From IMG/VR virus record IMGVR_UViG_3300022707_002784, positions 1 to 47,540 of that record: 47,540 nucleotides of DNA; one strand, given 5' to 3'. The stretch comes from a virus. Positions 2,883 to 44,864 of this stretch are shown one piece after another (position 1 is the stretch's first letter; the number at the start of each line of letters is the position of its first letter). A program made the position numbers and the translations under genes. A model generated the notes under the pieces. The model saw only the letters and a list, made by a program, of their open reading frames with translations. It ran no database searches and was not told where the DNA came from.

Positions 2883-4356
2883 TCAGGAGATTGTTGCTGC
2901 ATACAGATATACTCTCAAGCACAACTTTTATTTCTTCTTCAAGGAAAGCTGGCACATACTTGAGCCGGCAACGGACCTTGTTTCCAATTGGCACCACAAA
3001 TATATCTGTGACCTTCTGCAGGTCGAGACTGAGCGCATTGGCGCAAAGAAGAAGAAGACCAAGGATATCATCATCAATCTTCCTTTTCGCTCGAGCAAGA
3101 GTACCATTGTTTCCCAAATGTGGATTGCATGGGCATGGATCCGGTTTCCTCACATGCGGTTCATTACTTCTTCCTATGCAATGCGCCTGGCAACTCGAGA
3201 TGCTAAAAAGACTCGAGACTTAATTGATTCACAATGGTATCAAGAGTTGTTCGGTGACAGCTTTACATGGACTAGTGACCAGAATGTGAAGACTGAATAC
3301 CAAAATGATAAAACGGGAAAACGCTTTGTGACATCAACGGATTCGAATGTCATGGGTGAAGGTGGAGATGTATTGATATTCGATGACCCGAACAACACCA
3401 AGAAAATAAAGGCAGCGAACTTTGATTCAGTCAATGAAGCTTATGATGATGTGTTTTACAGTAGATTGAATGATGACAGTATTGGCCTTCGAATCATTAT
3501 TCAACAGCGAACCGGTGAAGATGATTTAACGGGTCACATCATGGAGGAATACCCTGAAGATATCAAGCATATAGTCATTCCTGCTGAGGTCAGTGATGAT
3601 ATCCATCCACCTGAGCTCCTTAAATATTATGATAACGGATTCTTCTGGGAATGGAAGTTTGATCGAAAGCGATTGGATAAATGGGAGAAAGTTCTTGGAG
3701 TTACTGCATACACTGGCCAGCTGCAGCAAAATCCTGAGTCAAAGGAGGGTAATAAGATCAAACGCGCCTGGTTTCAAATCATTAAGGAGGCTGAATTACC
3801 ATTTAACCTCGGCAATGCTGAGGATTATGAGAACGGTGATGATGAAGACAATGCACCCTTCCTTGGTGCAGATATTTGGATTGATGGAGCATATACCGAG
3901 AGTACCAAGAATGATCCAACAGGATTGATGTCGAGTATTTTCTTTGATGGTAATTTGTATATCATTAATGCAGTTGATAAATGGTTGGAACTGTACGAAT
4001 TATTGAAGTACATCAAGGGATATGCAAAGGAAAACTACCATGGCGCGAAGAATACTGTGTTTATTGAGCCGAAAGCAAGTGGTAAAAGCATCAAGAGTAT
4101 GCTGAATAAGAAGAAATTTAACTGTGTGGAGATTCAAAACAAGGTGGTTTCACTTGGTAAGATGTCAAGGGTGGAGGATGCAGAGCCAACTTTGGAAAGT
4201 GGAAAGGTGTTTCTGCTTAAAGGCCCATGGAATAAGAAGTTTATCAAGCAATGTGCAACGTTTCCCAACGCCAAACATGATGAACACGTTGATAATTTGT
4301 GCTATAACATTGACCGGCACTTCCTAAATAAGCGTGAAGGGCATGAATCCAGGTAG
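2833..4356 (+). CDS. terL: Terminase large subunit
   Basis: 507 aa from the ATG at 2833 (a GTG at 2830 is also in frame). This is the packaging motor: an ATPase and nuclease docked on the portal. The ATPase domain has a variant Walker A at about residues 83-91 (LPFRSSKST) and a Walker B at 180-185 (VLIFDD) followed by PNN. The C-terminal RNase H-like nuclease shows acidic positions D351 (WIDGAYTE), E412 (VFIEP) and D487 (DEHVDNLC). The length is normal for the family. No intron or frameshift is seen. The start lies inside the small-subunit gene. Confidence 0.95.
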   Translation: MTKQKKSQKKSPEPPTNQEIVAAYRYTLKHNFYFFFKESWHILEPATDLVSNWHHKYICDLLQVETERIGAKKKKTKDIIINLPFRSSKSTIVSQMWIAWAWIRFPHMRFITSSYAMRLATRDAKKTRDLIDSQWYQELFGDSFTWTSDQNVKTEYQNDKTGKRFVTSTDSNVMGEGGDVLIFDDPNNTKKIKAANFDSVNEAYDDVFYSRLNDDSIGLRIIIQQRTGEDDLTGHIMEEYPEDIKHIVIPAEVSDDIHPPELLKYYDNGFFWEWKFDRKRLDKWEKVLGVTAYTGQLQQNPESKEGNKIKRAWFQIIKEAELPFNLGNAEDYENGDDEDNAPFLGADIWIDGAYTESTKNDPTGLMSSIFFDGNLYIINAVDKWLELYELLKYIKGYAKENYHGAKNTVFIEPKASGKSIKSMLNKKKFNCVEIQNKVVSLGKMSRVEDAEPTLESGKVFLLKGPWNKKFIKQCATFPNAKHDEHVDNLCYNIDRHFLNKREGHESR

Positions 4357-4737
4357 ATTGCATTGATAAAATGCTTATATTTACATCATCTCACAATCCT
4401 ACAGGAAATCCAATGTAAACATATCCCCAATACCAGATAGCTAGGTACCTGTACCTGTGAGAGGCTTTCTGTGAGGGGTGTTTTAGTTCTTTGAAAACCT
4501 GCTCTTTGATTCAACAAGTAGTGATTGACAATGTAACCGAATGACCAGTAATGGCCCCAAGCTTACATTTAACGCTACTGTTTACAGCAGTTGATAGGAG
4601 AGGGTGCTACGTTAGATAAAAAGGGAGAATTGTATGGTGGGTTAGCTATATGCGGTTATCAACAATACCAACTATCTAGTTATTTTAATCCTTCTGTAAG
4701 GGATTAACAGGTGATCAAAGAACTTTAAAATCAAACT
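4357..4737 (+). other. Non-coding block after terminase
   Basis: 381 bases without a credible gene. It holds a short duplicated string (CTGTGAGAGG and CTGTGAGGGG near 4456-4477), an AGGTAC/GTACCT inverted repeat at 4443-4456, a 10-bp inverted repeat at 4485-4724 and a small hairpin near 4687-4705. No tRNA signature is present. It may be a leader or a structured RNA for the gene block that follows. Confidence 0.5.
4485..4724 (+). repeat. Long-range inverted repeat, possible structured RNA
   Basis: AGTTCTTTGA at 4485-4494 is perfectly complementary to TCAAAGAACT at 4715-4724. The flanks (TTTT before, TTAAAA after) allow the stem to grow past a bulge to about 14 bp. The right arm ends 13 nt before the next ATG, so the stem would close a domain of about 240 nt just upstream of translation. 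Whether it is transcribed or folded is not known. Confidence 0.4.
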
Positions 4738-5208
4738 ATGAACAGTAAAAACCTAAATATCATATTGTCGATGGTTCTTCTTATTGCCATAATATATGGA
4801 GGATCTATACAGGAAAATATTAAAGCAGAATTAAGAAGGCAGATTGAACTTACAGGAGAAGTGGAATATCGTAAAGGATATATCCAAGGATGGAAGGACG
4901 GAAGAAAGCCCATTAAGATCGATACAGTATACCATGTCGATACAGTAATAACCGATACCCAGTTCTTATTTATAAAAGATAATATCGGAACTGAATTAAT
5001 ATCGATCTCAAACGATAAAAAGAACAATACAGACTTATCAGCATATTCTGGATATTCGATTATAGGCAAATACTCCGATCACCATACTTATAAAGATTAT
5101 TGTGATTGCCATATTTCTCTACGTAAAGGAAGTAAATTCGCTAAGGTTAAAATAACCGATAAGATGCTGTATGATAATCTGGAGGTAGGCGATGTAATAC
5201 CTAATTAA
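4738..5208 (+). CDS. Membrane-anchored hypothetical protein
   Basis: 156 aa. Residues 8-23 form a hydrophobic signal anchor; the remainder is polar and would face the periplasm. It contains the repeated phrase DTVYHVDTVITDTQ, a Thr/Asp pattern also seen in the lipoprotein gene at 33179, but I recognise no family. It is the first gene after the non-coding block and may open a new operon. Confidence 0.6.
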   Translation: MNSKNLNIILSMVLLIAIIYGGSIQENIKAELRRQIELTGEVEYRKGYIQGWKDGRKPIKIDTVYHVDTVITDTQFLFIKDNIGTELISISNDKKNNTDLSAYSGYSIIGKYSDHHTYKDYCDCHISLRKGSKFAKVKITDKMLYDNLEVGDVIPN

Positions 5209-29324: not shown

Positions 29325-29831
29325 ATGCCAAACGAGAAAACATCGGAATATCCGGAAGCCGGAGAACTACAACCAGCGGATCTTCATGATATATCAGTGC
29401 CTGGTGGAGGGCTGACCACTGAAAGTGCTACTCAATATCAGGTAACAGGTGGAGAGCAGATATCTAAAGTATTTGGGGATTTCTCGGATGCTTCTCAACA
29501 ATTCGATTTAGTAGTATTTACTCTTAAGGGAGGTAGAAAATTTCAAGAATATGTACTTAAGCATGAAATAGAGTGGTCAGGACCGGGTATAACCGATGTA
29601 AAAATTGAATTAGGTATCGTAGGTAATGAAGGTAAATATACTTTCGAGCCAATTGATATTGATGTAGCACCAGGTGACGATATACTTGTTAATGAAGAGC
29701 CGAATACTATAGAGGATTTTAATAATGACGTAGATATAGTAATGAGAATTACAACGCAGGGGGCTAATCTAGATCAATTAGACACTGGATCTATAGATTT
29801 ATATATCTTTAGCAAATCAATGAAGCCATGA
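29325..29831 (+). CDS. Tail-associated hypothetical protein, 168 aa
   Basis: Acidic protein with an N-terminal low-complexity part ([20 protein letters not shown]) and a beta C-terminal part. It lies next to the fibre gene and overlaps it by 4 nt. The phrase [13 protein letters not shown] recalls N-termini of tail fibre adaptors, but this is weak. Confidence 0.5.
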
Positions 29832-31477
29832 TGAAAAGAATACTATATCTATTATTAATACTCGTATTACCGATCGGAGTACTAGGTCAGAGTAGTGTAC
29901 AGCATAAGAATGTAGAGGTTACTAAGAAGTCAAAACTGACAGGTCAAGTCGTTATAGGTGGAAGTTCCTTTGACGCATCTGCTATTCTAGAAGTAATTTC
30001 ATCAGATAAGGGGCTTCTTACTCCTAGAATGAATACAGCAGCCCGGGACGCAATTGGCTCACCGACAACTGGACTTCTTATATTCAATACCCAGACAGCT
30101 GTATTCGAATACTTTGATGTAACTTGGAAACCCATTGGGCTATCTGGCCCTACAGGTCCGACAGGAGCAACGGGAGCGACCGGAGCGCAAGGTGTAACAG
30201 GAGCAACCGGCGTAACTGGTCCTACGGGAGCAATTGGCTCGACGGGTGCGACAGGATCTACAGGAGCAATAGGGCCGACAGGACCAACAGGACCATCCGG
30301 GCCCGTTGATGGGGATGGTATTTATAGTGGTAGTGGTTCATTAACTGGACCTACTACCGTTACCATGGGTGCAAATAACCTAACTTTTTCAGGTAATCAA
30401 ACAACATTTAAGGGTATTAATGCTGCATCGGGTTCCGATGTTTTATTATTGGAAGACAATGTTGGTACTGATTTGTTGACCGTTCAAAATGATGGTAATG
30501 TCGGCATAGGCATTGTACCTGATGCAACAAGTAGATTACAAGTAAAGACCAAAAGCAATAGTACGGCTGATGGTATAATTTTCACCAATTCATCTGGCGG
30601 TAAATTATTGAGTATTAGAGAGGATGGAAATGGTGCTAGATGGCCAGGTGTTATTGGTTTTGGTCATGATAATGTACCTTTTGGAAACGTACATCTATTA
30701 CCTGGACCAGCAGGAGGAATTGGCAGACCGATGTTTATGGCCGAAACCAGCTATTTATCCTCCTTTCCTGATTACGTACTTACATCTGAGGGTAAACAGG
30801 TTATGGGTTCAATATCAACAATAGGCGGCACTCATAAAGTTGAATGGAGAATACCACAAAACACAGTGCTTGGTCAACCCGGAACATTTAATGCATTTTT
30901 TGCTACATCAGATGCTTTTGCTATAAATGTAGGTGCAGGAATCGCTCTTGGGGGACACTTTGAAGTAGGTAATCCTACTGCCTTTGCGGTAATAAACGGA
31001 GTAAAGGCCAATGCAGATGATGGTGATTCAGAAGGGATTATGCGACTTCTAGTTACTCCTGATGGTAGTGGAATTAATGAGATAATGACGTTACTTTCAA
31101 ATGGTCATGTAGGATTCTCAGATGTTACTCCGGCTGAAAAGATTCAGGTAAATGGTAATGCTATAATTGATAGCTCATTAGCCACTACAGCACGAACAAC
31201 AACACTCGGTGTAGCTGCAACAACCTTCCCTGTATTCAGCAATGTAATGACTATGACCGGTGACGGTGGAGGTAATACAGTTGCTACCATTACAGGAGCG
31301 AACAGTGGCATGCTCTTATCATTAATATTTACTGATGCAAATATTACAATTACTGATGATAATAGTCATGCAGCGAATACAGTAGATTTGCCAGCTAGTT
31401 TTTCAAGTGCCGATGATAAAACTTTATTATTAGTTTTTGATGGTACAAGTTGGTACAGTATTCCAGATACAAATTAA
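29828..31477 (+). CDS. Tail fibre-like protein with signal peptide and collagen repeats
   Basis: 549 aa (second Met at 29831). Residues 1-20 are a signal peptide with a cleavage site before Gln21 (GVLG/Q), odd for a fibre. Residues 104-160 are 19 Gly-X-Y triplets, mostly GPT, GAT and GST, a trimeric collagen-like rod. Domains after it include a conserved-looking [15 protein letters not shown] and a C-terminal beta domain found in trimeric fibres. The protein could be an adhesive fibre or an exported surface protein. A stop and the next secreted gene follow after 3 nt. Confidence 0.75.
30137..30307 (+). repeat. Collagen-like Gly-X-Y triplet repeat
   Basis: 19 consecutive Gly-X-Thr/Ile-type triplets within the fibre gene. 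Codon use within the triplets varies (GGA, GGT, GGC, GGG), so the repeat is maintained at protein level rather than by recent duplication. Confidence 0.85.
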
Positions 31478-34542: not shown

Positions 34543-34667
34543 ATAGACCAACCTTACATAGCGTGATGCCCAGGCTTCGACAAGTAGCATTACTATATAG
34601 TCTGAAGCTATCGAATCACAGACAATTCCGGATATCTCTTCATATAATGAATCTGACAAAACGATGA
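34539..34667 (+). CDS. Hypothetical protein, 42 aa
   Basis: Small basic ORF coupled to both neighbours by ATGA overlaps. It may be a remnant, as an HNH endonuclease gene follows directly. Support is positional only. Confidence 0.35.
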   Translation: MNRPTLHSVMPRLRQVALLYSLKLSNHRQFRISLHIMNLTKR

Positions 34668-35197
34668 CCAAAGAAGTTTGGAAAGACATATCTGGATTTG
34701 AAGGTTATTATCAAATAAGCGATTCCGGCAGGGTTAAAAGCCTTGATCGAACAGTAAGGCAACGAAACGGAATTAACTTAATAAAGGGAAGGTTTTTAAA
34801 ACCGTCCATAAACAAAGGCGGTTATGAATACTTATCCCTGTGTAAGGAAGGCAGTCAAAAAACTTATGTAATACACAGGCTAGTTGGTGTCGAGTTTGTC
34901 AGTAATCCACAAAACAAACCACAGATAAATCACATCAATGGAATCAAAACTGACAATAGAGCTGAAAATCTTGAGTGGGTTACGAATCAGGAAAATCAAC
35001 AGCATGCAAGCAAGATCGGTTTAAGGGATAATTCTAAGGGCATTAATCACCCTCTCAGCAAGTTAACCGAAGCGGATGTTTTAGAAATAAGGTCTAATAT
35101 ATTGAATAAATCAAGGCTTGAATTAAGCATTGAATTTGGAGTTAGTAAAACCGTTATTAATCAGATAATTAACCGAAAAATGTGGAAACATATTTAA
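34664..35197 (+). CDS. HNH homing endonuclease with NUMOD4
   Basis: 177 aa. Residues 3-30 form NUMOD4 (EVWKDISGFEGYYQISDSG). Residues 70-120 form HNH_3 with VIHRLVGVEF, INHINGIKTDNRAENLEWVT, typical of the family. Residues 128-177 are a helix-turn-helix part ending in WKHI, also found in the HNH gene at 38666. Free-standing endonucleases like this spread between phages by cutting intron-less alleles. No intron is visible at this site. Confidence 0.9.
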   Translation: MTKEVWKDISGFEGYYQISDSGRVKSLDRTVRQRNGINLIKGRFLKPSINKGGYEYLSLCKEGSQKTYVIHRLVGVEFVSNPQNKPQINHINGIKTDNRAENLEWVTNQENQQHASKIGLRDNSKGINHPLSKLTEADVLEIRSNILNKSRLELSIEFGVSKTVINQIINRKMWKHI

Positions 35198-35213: not shown

Positions 35214-35456
35214 ATGATGCAATCAAACATGGCACCAGGTACCGAAAATGATCCAAGAAGTGGATGTGACGACAATACCAAAGAATGTCCTGATTGTAAT
35301 GGTGAAGGTACATTCAATGAATCCGCTTGTTGTGGTGCATCAATCAAATGGACTGATATCTGTGAAGAGTGTTTAGAGCATTGTGACGAGTCTGAATGTG
35401 AAACCTGTAACGGTCTTGGAGAAATATCCAAACAACAACATCAATCTAACGAATAA
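35214..35456 (+). CDS. DnaJ-type zinc finger protein, 80 aa
   Basis: Two CxxCxGxG units (CPDCNGEG and CETCNGLG) with extra Cys pairs between them form a DnaJ-like zinc centre without a J-domain. A second zinc-finger gene of this kind (the cupin fusion) exists at 6236. It is 17 nt after the HNH gene and 10 nt before the ERF gene. Role unknown; protein contact is likely. Confidence 0.7.
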   Translation: MMQSNMAPGTENDPRSGCDDNTKECPDCNGEGTFNESACCGASIKWTDICEECLEHCDESECETCNGLGEISKQQHQSNE

Positions 35457-35465
35457 ATAGAAACC

Positions 35466-36239
35466 ATGGCAAAAGGAAAAGGCACCGAGGTTGCCGTAAC
35501 TACCTCACCAGCAAAACTACTAGAACTAGCAATTGGCAAGAATGTCGATATCGAGAAGCTGAAAGAGTTGATGGACCTTCAAGAACGCTGGGATGCTAAA
35601 CAGGCAAAGAAGGCATATTATCTGAGCCTGAGTAAATTTCAGAAAAATTGCCCTCCTATATTAAAGACGAAGGCTGGTTATAATGATCGATATTATTATG
35701 CGCCTTTGGATCAGATTATCAAGGTCATCAAACCGTCATTGTTCAAAAACCAACTTACCTATCGTTGGGAGCAAGCAGAAAAAGACAACAAGATATTAGT
35801 CACTTGTATCATTACTCATGTAGATGGACACAGTGAACAAACCACATTGGAAAGTGTTCCTGATACTTCAGGGGGTAAGAACGCTATCCAATCCAAGGGT
35901 TCAACTGTTCAATACTTGAGGCGCTACACACTTGAGAGCGTTCTGGGTATTGCAACGAGTGCAACCGATACTGATGGACAACAGGCAAGCCCACCGAAAC
36001 CTGCTAATCAGATAAAAATCAGCAAGGGTAAATCCAAAGATTTATTGGACAAATCCAAAATGATAATCGATGAATATACGGACCATAAAGATTTGATGGC
36101 TAAATACAAATCATTTGCTAAAGAACAATTGAAAGCAGGAATGCATCAGGAACATATTGATGATTTAAAGAGGTATATCAATGCAAAAAACGTATCTTTA
36201 AAGAAGGAGAACCAAACTGAGCCAACCAAATTACCATGA
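35466..36239 (+). CDS. ERF-type single-strand annealing protein
   Basis: 257 aa. It anneals complementary single strands in phage recombination and repair. The order SPAKLLELAIGKNVDIEKL, then LMDLQERWDAKQAKKAYY, then YAPLDQIIKVIKPSLF, and later KGSTVQYLRRYTLESVLGIATSATDTDG matches the ERF family closely. The C-terminal part is helical and lysine-rich. It overlaps the nuclease-FtsK fusion gene by 4 nt, so the two are probably made together. Confidence 0.88.
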   Translation: MAKGKGTEVAVTTSPAKLLELAIGKNVDIEKLKELMDLQERWDAKQAKKAYYLSLSKFQKNCPPILKTKAGYNDRYYYAPLDQIIKVIKPSLFKNQLTYRWEQAEKDNKILVTCIITHVDGHSEQTTLESVPDTSGGKNAIQSKGSTVQYLRRYTLESVLGIATSATDTDGQQASPPKPANQIKISKGKSKDLLDKSKMIIDEYTDHKDLMAKYKSFAKEQLKAGMHQEHIDDLKRYINAKNVSLKKENQTEPTKLP

Positions 36240-38341
36240 GTCACAAGTATAGGGAACTCTCACCCCAAAAACTTGAAGAAGTATTCTCGAATCTTCTCAT
36301 AGAGAGCTGGAGTTTTTCAAAGATTTCATCATTCGCCAGGAACGAAAAGGCGTTCGAAATGGATTACATTTATTGCAATCCAACAAAACGATCAGCATCA
36401 TCTGTAGCTGGCAACGCCTATCACAAAGCATTGGAATTCTACTTTGCCGAGAAGAAGGCTGGTCGAACATCTGACATTGCCAGTTTACAAATGGTGGCGT
36501 TCAATGAGATTGATGATGTTCAGGCGTATAAATGGAAATTACAGAAGACCACGGCAACAATCGAAGAGTGCCGAACCAAGGCAACAAAACTTTCCACACA
36601 ACTGCTTGAAAACTTCTTTACTGATATCTCTGTCTATGAATCAGAAATCAAGGAAGTTCTTCATGTGGAATTACGCCTAGAGGAATTCGTGACAATCAAC
36701 GGTGTTGATATTCCTATTCCATGTCATGCCATTATTGACTTGGTGTTCCTTAATCATGATGATAAACTGATCATTGCTGATCATAAATCCAAAGCCCAAT
36801 ATGCAGATGAGAAGGAATTGAAGTTCACAATTGGAAAGCAAGCGATTACATATTCCAATTGCTATGAAGAGAAATATGGTGAAATGGTCGATGAAGTGTG
36901 GTTTATAGAGAATAAGTATTCCAAGAACAGAGATGGTTCACCACAACTTAGATGCTTCAAGGTAATTCTTGATAAGGATACCAGAAGATTATATGAGGCT
37001 TTATTGTATGAGCCATTGAAGAAAATGATTGAAGCCATTTCAGATCCGGATTATGTTTACATGATTAATGACAGTGATAATTTCGTGGATACAGTACAGG
37101 TGTACGAATTCTGGAGTCAGACAATGATTGCTGAGGTTGATGATTTCAATGTTCCCAAATCCAAGAGGAAGTTGATTGCTAAAAGGCTGAAGAAAATTCG
37201 CGATTCATCTCTTGCAATGGTGGATCCAAAGACAATAAAGAAGTTCAGGGCAGATGCATCTGAGTTCATTCAATATGATTTAACAAACAAAAACATGAGT
37301 AAGCCACAGAAAATTGAGCACACATTGAGAACATTGGGCGTTATGGTAAGTGTGGCCCATACTATTGAAGGGTATTCCAGTGATACTTTTCTGATAGAAG
37401 TTTCAGCTGGAGTTAATATTGCTTCTGTACATCGATACAAATTGGATATTGCCAATGCCTTGAATGTATCGAGCATCCGGATGATGAAGGATCTATTTGT
37501 GTATGAAGGGAAGTCATACCTGGCAGTTGAGGCAACGAAGGAACGTGAACATGACTTGATGTTTGATCCAAAGTTATTGGATGGTCAGAAGATTCCAATA
37601 GGCATGAGCAACTTTAATGAGGTCATTGTGTGGGATATATCAAATCCTTCTACACCTCATGTATTGATTTGTGGTGCCACTGGTTCGGGTAAATCAGTTT
37701 GCATCATATCTATTATTGAATATGCCAAGTTGATTGGAATGGATAAGATTGTGTTGTTCGATCCGAAATATGAATTTACAGGTATGCAAGGTGGAGGTAT
37801 TCAGGTTTATAATGATATTGATCTGGTTGAAGAAAAGATGGAATCATTGGTAATTGAAATGCAAAATCTTGTAAAAGCAGGCAAGAAAACCAAGACTCTT
37901 GTTGTATTCGATGAGTTTGCTGATGCAGTTGCCATGTCAAAGAAGGGAAAGGACTTGGATATCAAGGAAGAAGTTCAGGTTGGAAACTATGCACCGAAGA
38001 AAATGGGAGATGTTGTTATACCTGGAGTTCCGAAAATGCAGATGCAGGTTATTGAAACCAAGAAGTCTCTAGAAGAAAACTTACGTCTTCTTCTGCAGAA
38101 AGGACGTTCAATCGGATATCGCATCGTTGCAGCGACTCAACGAGCATCTGTGAAAGTAATTACCGGTGATGCCAAGGTGAATTTCCCTGTACAAATCTGC
38201 TTCAGAGTACCAAAAGAGGTGGATTCAAAGGTTGTTATTGATGAACCAGGTGCAGAGAGTTTATCTGGAAAGGGTGATGGATTAATCAAGTCACCTGAAT
38301 ATCAATCTGTAGTGAGATTTCAGGCATTTTATAAAGGATAA
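36236..38341 (+). CDS. RecB-type nuclease fused to FtsK-type DNA motor
   Basis: 701 aa. Residues 25-230 are a RecB/Cas4-type nuclease: H63 (GNAYHKALE), D168 (AIIDLVF), D182-H-K184 (IADHKSK) and Q202 with Y206 (KQAITY). Residues 360-701 match the FtsK/SpoIIIE motor: ahead of the Walker A, SDTFLIEVSAGVNIASVHRY; Walker A at 479-487 (CGATGSGKS), Walker B at 555-560 (LVVFDE), then RSIGYRIVAATQRASVKVITG and SGKGDGLI. No other gene in the window encodes such a motor. Placed next to ERF, it is probably an end-resection machine feeding annealing. The functional link is inferred. Confidence 0.85.
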   Translation: MSHKYRELSPQKLEEVFSNLLIESWSFSKISSFARNEKAFEMDYIYCNPTKRSASSVAGNAYHKALEFYFAEKKAGRTSDIASLQMVAFNEIDDVQAYKWKLQKTTATIEECRTKATKLSTQLLENFFTDISVYESEIKEVLHVELRLEEFVTINGVDIPIPCHAIIDLVFLNHDDKLIIADHKSKAQYADEKELKFTIGKQAITYSNCYEEKYGEMVDEVWFIENKYSKNRDGSPQLRCFKVILDKDTRRLYEALLYEPLKKMIEAISDPDYVYMINDSDNFVDTVQVYEFWSQTMIAEVDDFNVPKSKRKLIAKRLKKIRDSSLAMVDPKTIKKFRADASEFIQYDLTNKNMSKPQKIEHTLRTLGVMVSVAHTIEGYSSDTFLIEVSAGVNIASVHRYKLDIANALNVSSIRMMKDLFVYEGKSYLAVEATKEREHDLMFDPKLLDGQKIPIGMSNFNEVIVWDISNPSTPHVLICGATGSGKSVCIISIIEYAKLIGMDKIVLFDPKYEFTGMQGGGIQVYNDIDLVEEKMESLVIEMQNLVKAGKKTKTLVVFDEFADAVAMSKKGKDLDIKEEVQVGNYAPKKMGDVVIPGVPKMQMQVIETKKSLEENLRLLLQKGRSIGYRIVAATQRASVKVITGDAKVNFPVQICFRVPKEVDSKVVIDEPGAESLSGKGDGLIKSPEYQSVVRFQAFYKG

Positions 38342-39534: not shown

Positions 39535-39812
39535 ATTACGAAGGTAAAGTTCGTGCAGTTCTTGAGTCATGGCCCGATGCCAGAGATGATGAAAACAAGC
39601 TACTTTCATCTGTTTGGAGTAATGAACTGGACCTTCAGCATGTTAAAATTACCCAGATGCATGTTTACTTATTCATGGGCATGCTCATGGAGAATAAGTT
39701 AATGCCAGCTAGTCAAATATTATCAATCCGCGATCATTTGCAGAAAGAGCATCCAGAATTGCGCGGTGAATTATACCATGAAGTAATAGGAAGACCATTC
39801 AATGATATCTGA
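39531..39812 (+). CDS. Hypothetical phage protein, 93 aa
   Basis: Helical, with VRAVLESWPDARDDENKLLSS near the start, a pattern seen in small phage proteins near replication genes. Function unknown. It overlaps the next HNH gene by 11 nt. Confidence 0.55.
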   Translation: MNYEGKVRAVLESWPDARDDENKLLSSVWSNELDLQHVKITQMHVYLFMGMLMENKLMPASQILSIRDHLQKEHPELRGELYHEVIGRPFNDI

Positions 39813-40419
39813 AGAACACGAAATGAAAGAGGTCTGGAAGGATATACGTGGATACAAGGGATTATACCAGGTTAGTAGCTTGGGCCGTATAAAATCTCTA
39901 AAAAGGATAGTATATCGAAATAAGCAAAAATGGTGTGTTATCGATGCGCAAATTCTTAAAGAGAAAATACAGAGTAACGGGTATTCAGCACAGTGTCTTT
40001 GCAATAAAGCTGTGAAAAAGTATTTTACCGTTCATAGATTAGTTGCCATTGCATTTATTCCCAATCCAGAGAATAAAAAGGAAGTGAATCATAAAAACTT
40101 CGACAAAACAGATAGTCGTGTGGAAAATCTTGAATGGTTAACACCAAAAGAAAATATTCAACATGCATTAAAAGGGGGCAGAAAGGTTGGTATTAGTAAT
40201 CTCGGTGCTGACCATCATTGCTCAAAAGCAGTTATAAAAATGAGCCTGGATGGGGTTGATTTGCAAAAATATGATTCAATAGCAATGGCAGCTGAAGATA
40301 ATGGAGTAACATCTCCTAGTATATCCGGAGTAGTTAGAGGTAAAGAAAAAACAGCTGCTGGATTTAAATGGAAATATGAAATCAAACACTCTCAACATGG
40401 CGAAAAAGTTAACACATAA
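39802..40419 (+). CDS. HNH homing endonuclease with NUMOD4 and NUMOD1
   Basis: 205 aa from ATG 39802; an internal ATG at 39823 would place the start right at NUMOD4. Order: NUMOD4 (EVWKDIRGYKGLYQVSSLG), HNH_3 (VHRLVAIAFIPNPENKKEVNH, then DSRVENLEWLT), then a NUMOD1-like tail (GVDLQKYDSIAMAAEDNGV). It is a third mobile endonuclease of this window. It overlaps the HTH gene downstream slightly. Confidence 0.88.
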   Translation: MISEEHEMKEVWKDIRGYKGLYQVSSLGRIKSLKRIVYRNKQKWCVIDAQILKEKIQSNGYSAQCLCNKAVKKYFTVHRLVAIAFIPNPENKKEVNHKNFDKTDSRVENLEWLTPKENIQHALKGGRKVGISNLGADHHCSKAVIKMSLDGVDLQKYDSIAMAAEDNGVTSPSISGVVRGKEKTAAGFKWKYEIKHSQHGEKVNT

Positions 40420-44169: not shown

Positions 44170-44382
44170 ATGAAATTAACGACAGAACAGAAATTGGCTG
44201 AAGTATCAAAAATGATTGAGATTAGAAAGGCTGTATCAATCTTAATATTAGCATTCAAGGATTGTAATTTGAAGAGCCATATTAGATTCGCTTATGAAAC
44301 AGAGGCTAACGAAAAGTTTGAAATTACATTTCTGCAATTGGTTAATGAAGTAACTATTAAAGGAGTAAAGCCAATAAAATGA
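44170..44382 (+). CDS. Hypothetical protein, 70 aa
   Basis: Small mixed alpha/beta protein; it overlaps the next gene by 4 nt. No family recognised. Confidence 0.5.
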   Translation: MKLTTEQKLAEVSKMIEIRKAVSILILAFKDCNLKSHIRFAYETEANEKFEITFLQLVNEVTIKGVKPIK

Positions 44383-44864
44383 CCGATAAGGACTACAGTA
44401 ACATGCTTGAGTTCGTCATGGAAGGGAATGGCTGGATTGCCAACAATGAGAACGCCCAGGAACTCATGGAGCAGACTTCACCTGGAGAAGTACAGATGTT
44501 CAAGGAGGTCACTGGTAGGGATATTAAACGATTAAAATGCTATTTCAGTTTGCTCAATTACATTTGGAATTACCTGCCTGATAAATTCAAGGCCAAGGTG
44601 CCATGTGATAAGTTCTATCTGTGGCTGAAGCATATTCGAGGGGAATGGGAAGTGATATTTGAGTTTGGAGATAATACCAAGTTAATCGAATACACCTCAA
44701 TTTCTTTCGGTAAAATGTCGGAGTTTGAATTTCGCGAGTATATAAAACAGCAGATGCCATTCATATACTCAGATGTAATTGGGCGCATGTACGAAGATGA
44801 AGAATGCGATGCAATTATTGAAAATATTGAGAATGATTATTCGTCGTTTTTCGCTACCTTGTAA
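44379..44864 (+). CDS. DUF1367-like protein
   Basis: 161 aa. The phrase CYFSLLNYIWNYLPD, then FYLWLKHIRGEWEVIFEF and SISFGKMSEFEF, resembles DUF1367 proteins (NinB-neighbour phage proteins of unknown function). It is placed between replication and nuclease genes, as is common. Call by visual similarity. Confidence 0.55.
   Translation: MTDKDYSNMLEFVMEGNGWIANNENAQELMEQTSPGEVQMFKEVTGRDIKRLKCYFSLLNYIWNYLPDKFKAKVPCDKFYLWLKHIRGEWEVIFEFGDNTKLIEYTSISFGKMSEFEFREYIKQQMPFIYSDVIGRMYEDEECDAIIENIENDYSSFFATL

Follow-up and report, generated by a model that had tools for sequence, protein, structure and literature searches.

An exonuclease and its annealing protein are generally regarded as a matched pair, and this restricts recombineering outside E. 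coli. In lambda Redα/Redβ and Rac RecE/RecT (SynExo), the gene for a PD-(D/E)XK exonuclease lies beside that for the annealing protein, whose C-terminus is needed for the partnership with the exonuclease, a precedent for exonuclease-coupled loading, and the two systems cannot swap partners (PMC5052646). In the NurA-HerA pair of archaea and Deinococcus, a ring motor of the FtsK/HerA superfamily and a nuclease act on double-stranded DNA ends to yield 3' single-stranded DNA (PMC9960219). Recruitment through a short C-terminal peptide is known from the SSB C-terminal tip (DDDIPF), which brings in genome-maintenance partners (PMC5928155).

The locus described here lies in a 47.5-kb virus contig, analysed over its whole length (the window), which encodes a terminase, portal, major head protein, tape measure, endolysin, methyltransferase, NinB/Orf mediator and DnaQ-like exonuclease, and hence belongs to a tailed phage. 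An ERF gene is followed in it by a gene for a nuclease-motor fusion, and an earlier note, made from the sequence alone, had placed both reading frames and their 4-nt overlap exactly where we find them (Table 1). The mediator gene downstream probably belongs to the same recombination toolkit as the fusion. Directly before the ERF gene is a small cysteine-rich 80-aa ORF (35214-35456) with a DnaJ CXXCXGXG-like pattern below cut-off; two genes are HNH-type by sequence resemblance (34664-35197 and 39802-40419) and similar to an HNH/NUMOD4 gene in locus L063, and a predicted structural protein with collagen-like repeats is encoded at 29828-31477.

Table 1. Features of the recombination locus and downstream mediator gene in the window, with the evidence for each.
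Feature	Position	Strand	Evidence
ERF-family single-strand annealing protein (SSAP), 257 aa, fusion partner here	35466..36239	+	Pfam ERF 1.3e-19; PHROG Erf-like 4.8e-36
ERF C-terminal tail, ...NVSLKKENQTEPTKLP-COOH; last KLP, putative docking tag	36189..36236	+	tail statistics
4-nt stop/start overlap ATGA, ERF/fusion	36236..36239	+	gap -4 in 39/70 non-redundant loci
PD-(D/E)XK nuclease / FtsK-type motor fusion protein, 701 aa	36236..38341	+	Pfam, PDB sequence search, homologues, predicted structure
PD-(D/E)XK (RecB/Cas4-type) nuclease domain, residues 24-226	36305..36913	+	Pfam PDDEXK_1; conserved residues; Foldseek ACE1/Cas4, AdnA
Conserved helical stretch between nuclease and alpha domains, residues 227-345, without a named domain	36914..37270	+	low entropy; predicted helices
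FtsK alpha domain, residues 350-432	37283..37531	+	Pfam FtsK_alpha 3.5e-7
FtsK motor, residues 433-701	37532..38338	+	Pfam, PDB sequence search, Foldseek, conservation
NinB/Orf-type recombination mediator, 161 aa, downstream of fusion	44379..44864	+	PHROG 319, E 3.8e-9

Domains, predicted structure and homologues of the fusion

The earlier note had read a complete nuclease motif set and a full FtsK-like motor in a single chain, and Pfam, homologues and structure prediction all bear this out. Besides FtsK_alpha, Pfam assigned PDDEXK_1 (E 2.9e-8) and an FtsK_SpoIIIE/HerA P-loop (residues 460-527); PHROGs matched the N-terminus to exonucleases and residues 345-699 to an FtsK/SpoIIIE-like entry, and a PDB sequence search matched residues 357-688 to solved FtsK (E 2.7e-25). 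Key residues of the nuclease motifs (H63, D168, D182-H-K184, Q202, Y206) and motor motifs (Walker A 479-487, Walker B 555-560, ATQR 633-636, SGKGDG 677-682) are kept in 66 to 68 of 68 aligned full-length homologues: H63, D168, D182, K184 and Q202 in the nuclease and G480, G483, G485, K486, E560, T634-Q635-R636, G678, G680 and D681 in the motor are invariant, while H183, Y206 and S484 are conserved in 67 and D559 in 66.

Both domains fold as claimed in the AlphaFold model (pLDDT 88.7), whose pTM of 0.57 is low for their relative placement. Foldseek found the motor closest to FtsK (6t8o and 2ius; E 2e-22, target TM 0.68-0.69), with HerA only at ~1e-6, and matched the N-terminal part to the Cas4-family ACE1 (9iac, target TM 0.59) and to AdnA (E 2e-8 to 2e-7). 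Judged by its H, D, D-x-K and QxxxY motifs and its predicted fold, the N-terminal domain is a RecB/Cas4-type PD-(D/E)XK nuclease, and the alpha domain and RecA-type motor with Walker A and B place the remainder, on the same kinds of evidence, in the FtsK/SpoIIIE family. The chain ends right after the motor, at residue 701, so that the C-terminal gamma (KOPS-reading) domain is absent; so is a conserved set of four Fe-S cysteines of the Cas4/AddB type, C112 and C163 varying among the aligned homologues and C209 being mostly replaced. Between the domains, the model has helices at 247-269, 286-298, 308-324 and 331-343. Columns of the fusion covary weakly with the end residue of the partner tail described below, and some of the top ones (314, 318, 322) fall in this middle region, in an analysis uncorrected for phylogeny; residues 227-345 are therefore a tentative candidate for a tail site, with 314-322 as a weak lead.

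The same fusion is conserved, at 44-69% identity to the window protein, in about 80 distinct loci, as expected if it is real. Full-length relatives came from viral contigs (16 in one set and 80 loci in another, many overlapping) and one Bacteroidales MAG; the set of 80 distinct fusion proteins includes the window, and two of its loci, L076 (upstream) and L097, lie on contigs cut at the end. Since the frame runs without a break through both domains in about 80 distinct loci from other contigs, a chance ORF or mis-assembly is excluded. One member of the set has a frameshift in the fusion (L085:2034-4210), from a sequencing error or in a decayed copy. As to split homologues, a separate nuclease or motor gene of the fusion type was found in none of the non-fusion control loci, and two annotated phage FtsK proteins (WXIN, Goe3) have no nuclease or SSAP annotated nearby. 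The nuclease part had no match in 50,697 phage records and the N-terminal half none in 72,556 plasmids, and when 395 genomes from the phylum to which the L018 MAG belongs were searched, the fusion occurred in that MAG only.

The exonuclease slot and its annealing partners

In 73 of 74 non-redundant loci the fusion is preceded by the gene for an SSAP, either recognised or candidate; L051 has the fusion, but the 2.2 kb immediately before it contain no annealing gene. Spacing is tight: among 70 non-redundant loci, the gap between the two genes is -4 in 39, -1 in 10 and mostly small in the rest. In 194 loci with members of the ERF, RecT, Sak4 and phrog_3657 families but without the fusion, the commonest gene after theirs, in 138, encodes a YqaJ-type PD-(D/E)XK exonuclease, and three such proteins matched PF09588 with E values of 7e-15 to 1.5e-19; a few loci have DUF3799, a PDDEXK family, there. 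The YqaJ-type gene is found in none of the 80 fusion loci, and hence the fusion replaces the exonuclease of a SynExo pair, although it is no YqaJ protein itself: Pfam gives PDDEXK_1 in place of PF09588, and hhalign of fusion against YqaJ gave a probability of 0.5%. Fusion loci have two marks of SynExo, an exonuclease gene beside an SSAP gene and an exclusive exonuclease slot; a third mark would be direct binding of exonuclease to SSAP with 5'-3' resection, to which the tail association described below speaks only indirectly. That the fusion feeds an annealing protein, as first suggested for ERF in the window, is well supported, because it sits where phages with the same annealing families carry the YqaJ-type exonuclease.

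ERF does adjoin the fusion in the window, as had been noted, but is only one of about ten partner groups with no mutual BLAST similarity at 1e-5, and we rejected it as an obligatory partner. The groups are phrog_3657 (25 members), RecT (14), Sak4/AAA_24 (12), an unnamed family, A7 (7), RecT-like phrog_561 (5), Rad52 (4), ERF (3, including the window) and phrog_15333 (3), with L038 and L044 (RecT/Bet) as singletons. ERF, RecT and Rad52 may be distant relatives within a Rad52 superfamily (PMC9870868). Sak4 is RecA-like, unlike these three, so that at least two folds occur among the partners. Mapped on a maximum-likelihood tree of the fusion, the class of partner switches at least 28 times (the minimum possible being 9), and strongly supported sister fusions have different partners (L020/L021, L015/L090, L089/L096 and L053/L067). 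Partners have thus been exchanged repeatedly.

Several of these groups are unnamed. Members of phrog_3657 (L005:451-1284 and relatives) precede either the fusion, and then carry the tail, or a YqaJ exonuclease, and then lack it; by its place, phrog_3657 is probably a new family of annealing proteins. Foldseek with the AlphaFold model of this protein (pLDDT 80.5) reached Redβ only at rank 6 (E 0.1). Three more unnamed families precede the fusion, nearly all of their members with the same tail, and are candidates for further annealing proteins: A7 (L001:7285-7992, L043, L053, L066, L081, L084, L089), phrog_15333 (L047, L054, L055) and the protein at L038:4183-4998.

A C-terminal tail associated with the fusion

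Partners of the fusion share their last residues. Among 73 fusion-linked partners, 70 end in [L/M][P/L/M/A]-COOH and 53 in [L/M]P; the penultimate position is L or M in 72, and of the final residues 53 are P and 13 are L. In 173 fusion-less members of four of the same families (ERF, Sak4, RecT, phrog_3657), the first pattern occurs four times and [L/M]P never (P=2e-52 and P=1e-37, respectively, pooling all 73 partners against these 173). Family by family, [L/M]P with and without the fusion was found in 3/3 and 0/28 for ERF, 13/15 and 0/49 for Sak4, 14/19 and 0/44 for phrog_3657, and 2/2 and 0/52 for RecT, with only two RecT on the fusion side. A basic K/R-K/R-x-x-hydrophobic stretch often precedes the tail (48/73 with the fusion versus 35/173 without), and it is only there that hhalign aligned unrelated partner families, at low probabilities. 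In L021 (4144-4989) a stop codon splits recT, by sequencing error or in a decayed copy, and the downstream piece still ends in EEMP.

Taking domains, predicted structure, gene order and tail together, we think it likely that the fusion is a motor-driven resection exonuclease that recruits any annealing protein bearing its C-terminal docking tag. The 701-aa protein would be the exonuclease half of a SynExo-type two-component recombinase, built onto an FtsK-type ring motor. Its alpha and motor parts would form a ring at a double-stranded end and pull in DNA by ATP hydrolysis, and the N-terminal nuclease would remove one strand as the DNA passes, presumably leaving 3' single-stranded DNA. The annealing protein has a flexible C-terminus, whose last residues, x-[L/M]-[P/L]-COOH, mostly preceded by a K/R-rich stretch, would hold it until it is loaded onto the emerging single strand. 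Because it is a portable tail that would be recognised, and no part of the annealing core, cores could be freely exchanged. The broader idea that this motorised exonuclease evolved a 'universal socket', with which any annealing core, be it RecA-like Sak4, Rad52-like or unnamed, becomes a functional partner via one short C-terminal peptide, seems to us somewhat favoured.

The tail might instead bind a host or another phage protein, such as SSB, Orf or a replisome factor, and accompany the fusion through shared hosts or replication style. SSB C-tails do recruit Sak4 (PMC5928155), and acidic tips resembling that of SSB occur on annealing proteins of some other phages: fusion-less Sak4 (L337, L341, L356 and others) often end in or near DDDPF, EGF or NNF, which suggests that the C-terminal tag of an annealing protein differs with its partner. 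Binding of such an outside protein is nevertheless improbable, as cores 80-83% identical differ in their tails with fusion status (L178 versus L182 and L183; L227 versus L237), the contigs of L182, L183 and L237 having no fusion anywhere. Moreover, at equal fusion divergence tail identity is similar between and within partner classes (for example, 0.181 versus 0.184), and hence the tail goes with the fusion and not with the annealing core; nor does any other ORF in the fusion loci carry the tail beyond chance, and other ORFs of at least 100 aa there end in [L/M]P in 5 of 603 cases. As an alternative to direct docking, the ligand of the tail could also be some third factor that serves only alongside the fusion.

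As to the motor, it could translocate little and serve as a passive clamp or loader, which would make the protein a plain exonuclease tethered to DNA. The missing gamma domain would fit this, and motor activity is read here from sequence; we regard a passive role as quite improbable given that Walker A K486, Walker B E560 and the ATQR and GxGD residues are invariant in the 68 homologues. Inteins favour essential catalytic motifs, and the fusion ORF of L094 (from near 3784) has one, with an HNH-like segment, inside Walker A (GATG / CLSADT...VHN / SGKS).

It is very unlikely that the fusion is instead a translocase with a nuclease for packaging, DNA segregation or defence, like HerA-type defence complexes, with annealing genes as incidental neighbours. 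FtsK/HerA motors do serve in packaging, secretion and defence, and PADLOC gave weak matches to mad8, SspH and HerA motors, but these cover the motor only, the window phage has its own terminase, and the fusion keeps strictly to the recombination slot in the place of YqaJ, with known SSAP classes adjoining in most loci and a tail that co-varies with it.

That the shared ending arises from the overlapping gene junction, through translational coupling or start-site signals, and is not a protein motif is scarcely credible and largely refuted: although the ATGA overlap at 39 of 70 junctions fixes the last base of the last codon, the tail also occurs at gaps of -1 and +1 to +168, other ATGA-overlapping ORFs of the fusion loci end in [L/M]P in 0 of 47 cases, and tail Leu codons vary (TTA, CTG, CTC, TTG, CTA, CTT), so that selection acts on the protein. 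The overlap, taken earlier as support for joint expression, is thus real, but it does not hold the pair together, since the annealing genes keep the tail (ending in MEMP or PQMP) even where an HNH/NUMOD4 gene (4471-4995) sits exactly between them and the fusion (L063) or ~1.5 kb of other genes does (L078); with the tail present at varied gaps and in separated genes, we rejected a DNA-level junction artefact. The evidence favours, short of proof, a universal docking tag.

Comparison with known recombination systems

Exonuclease and annealing protein are a known combination; the fusion to a motor and a tag common to unrelated annealing proteins appear new, as we found no description of either in the open-access papers searched. 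Unlike Redα, a motorless toroid, the nuclease in the window is fused to an FtsK-type motor, and whereas lambda and Rac have fixed partners, one family of fusion nucleases goes with about ten partner families, an exchangeability that is unusual given the non-exchangeable lambda and Rac pairs. The YqaJ-type viral recombinase exonucleases (PF09588) likewise belong to the PD-(D/E)XK superfamily and lie beside ERF, RecT, Sak4 or phrog_3657, but are standalone proteins of ~244 aa with no motor, no detectable sequence kinship to the fusion and partners without the tail. As a recruiting peptide, the partner tail resembles the SSB tip but reads x-[L/M]-[P/L], lacks a terminal Phe and sits on annealing proteins.

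If one nuclease-motor does serve many annealing cores via a short tail, phages would have a recombination system whose annealing modules are freely exchangeable, and this would explain how readily they swap recombination modules. It would also offer a portable part for dsDNA recombineering, the loci including a Bacteroidales MAG, and the tail would be a tag by which to recognise annealing proteins among unnamed families, phrog_3657 and others.

For the motor itself, the fusion shares the alpha domain and motor of FtsK/SpoIIIE (23-25% identity over ~395 columns, target TM up to 0.69), but has neither membrane nor gamma domain and has a nuclease as its N-terminus. The earlier note had seen it as a compact alternative to AddAB. 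AddAB, AdnAB and RecBCD do join a RecB-family nuclease domain to a motor, as reflected in the Foldseek match to AdnA, but their motors are SF1 helicases, in contrast to the FtsK RecA-type ring motor of the fusion, which also lacks conserved Fe-S cysteines. By analogy, the closest mechanistic parallel is rather NurA-HerA, with its ring motor and nuclease, which differs in being two proteins with a HerA-type motor, whereas the fusion is one chain with an FtsK alpha domain and motor and a nuclease matching Cas4 and AdnA structures. With the activity predicted for it, the fusion would be a further means of resecting DNA ends with a ring motor, contained in a single polypeptide, as a counterpart of NurA-HerA.
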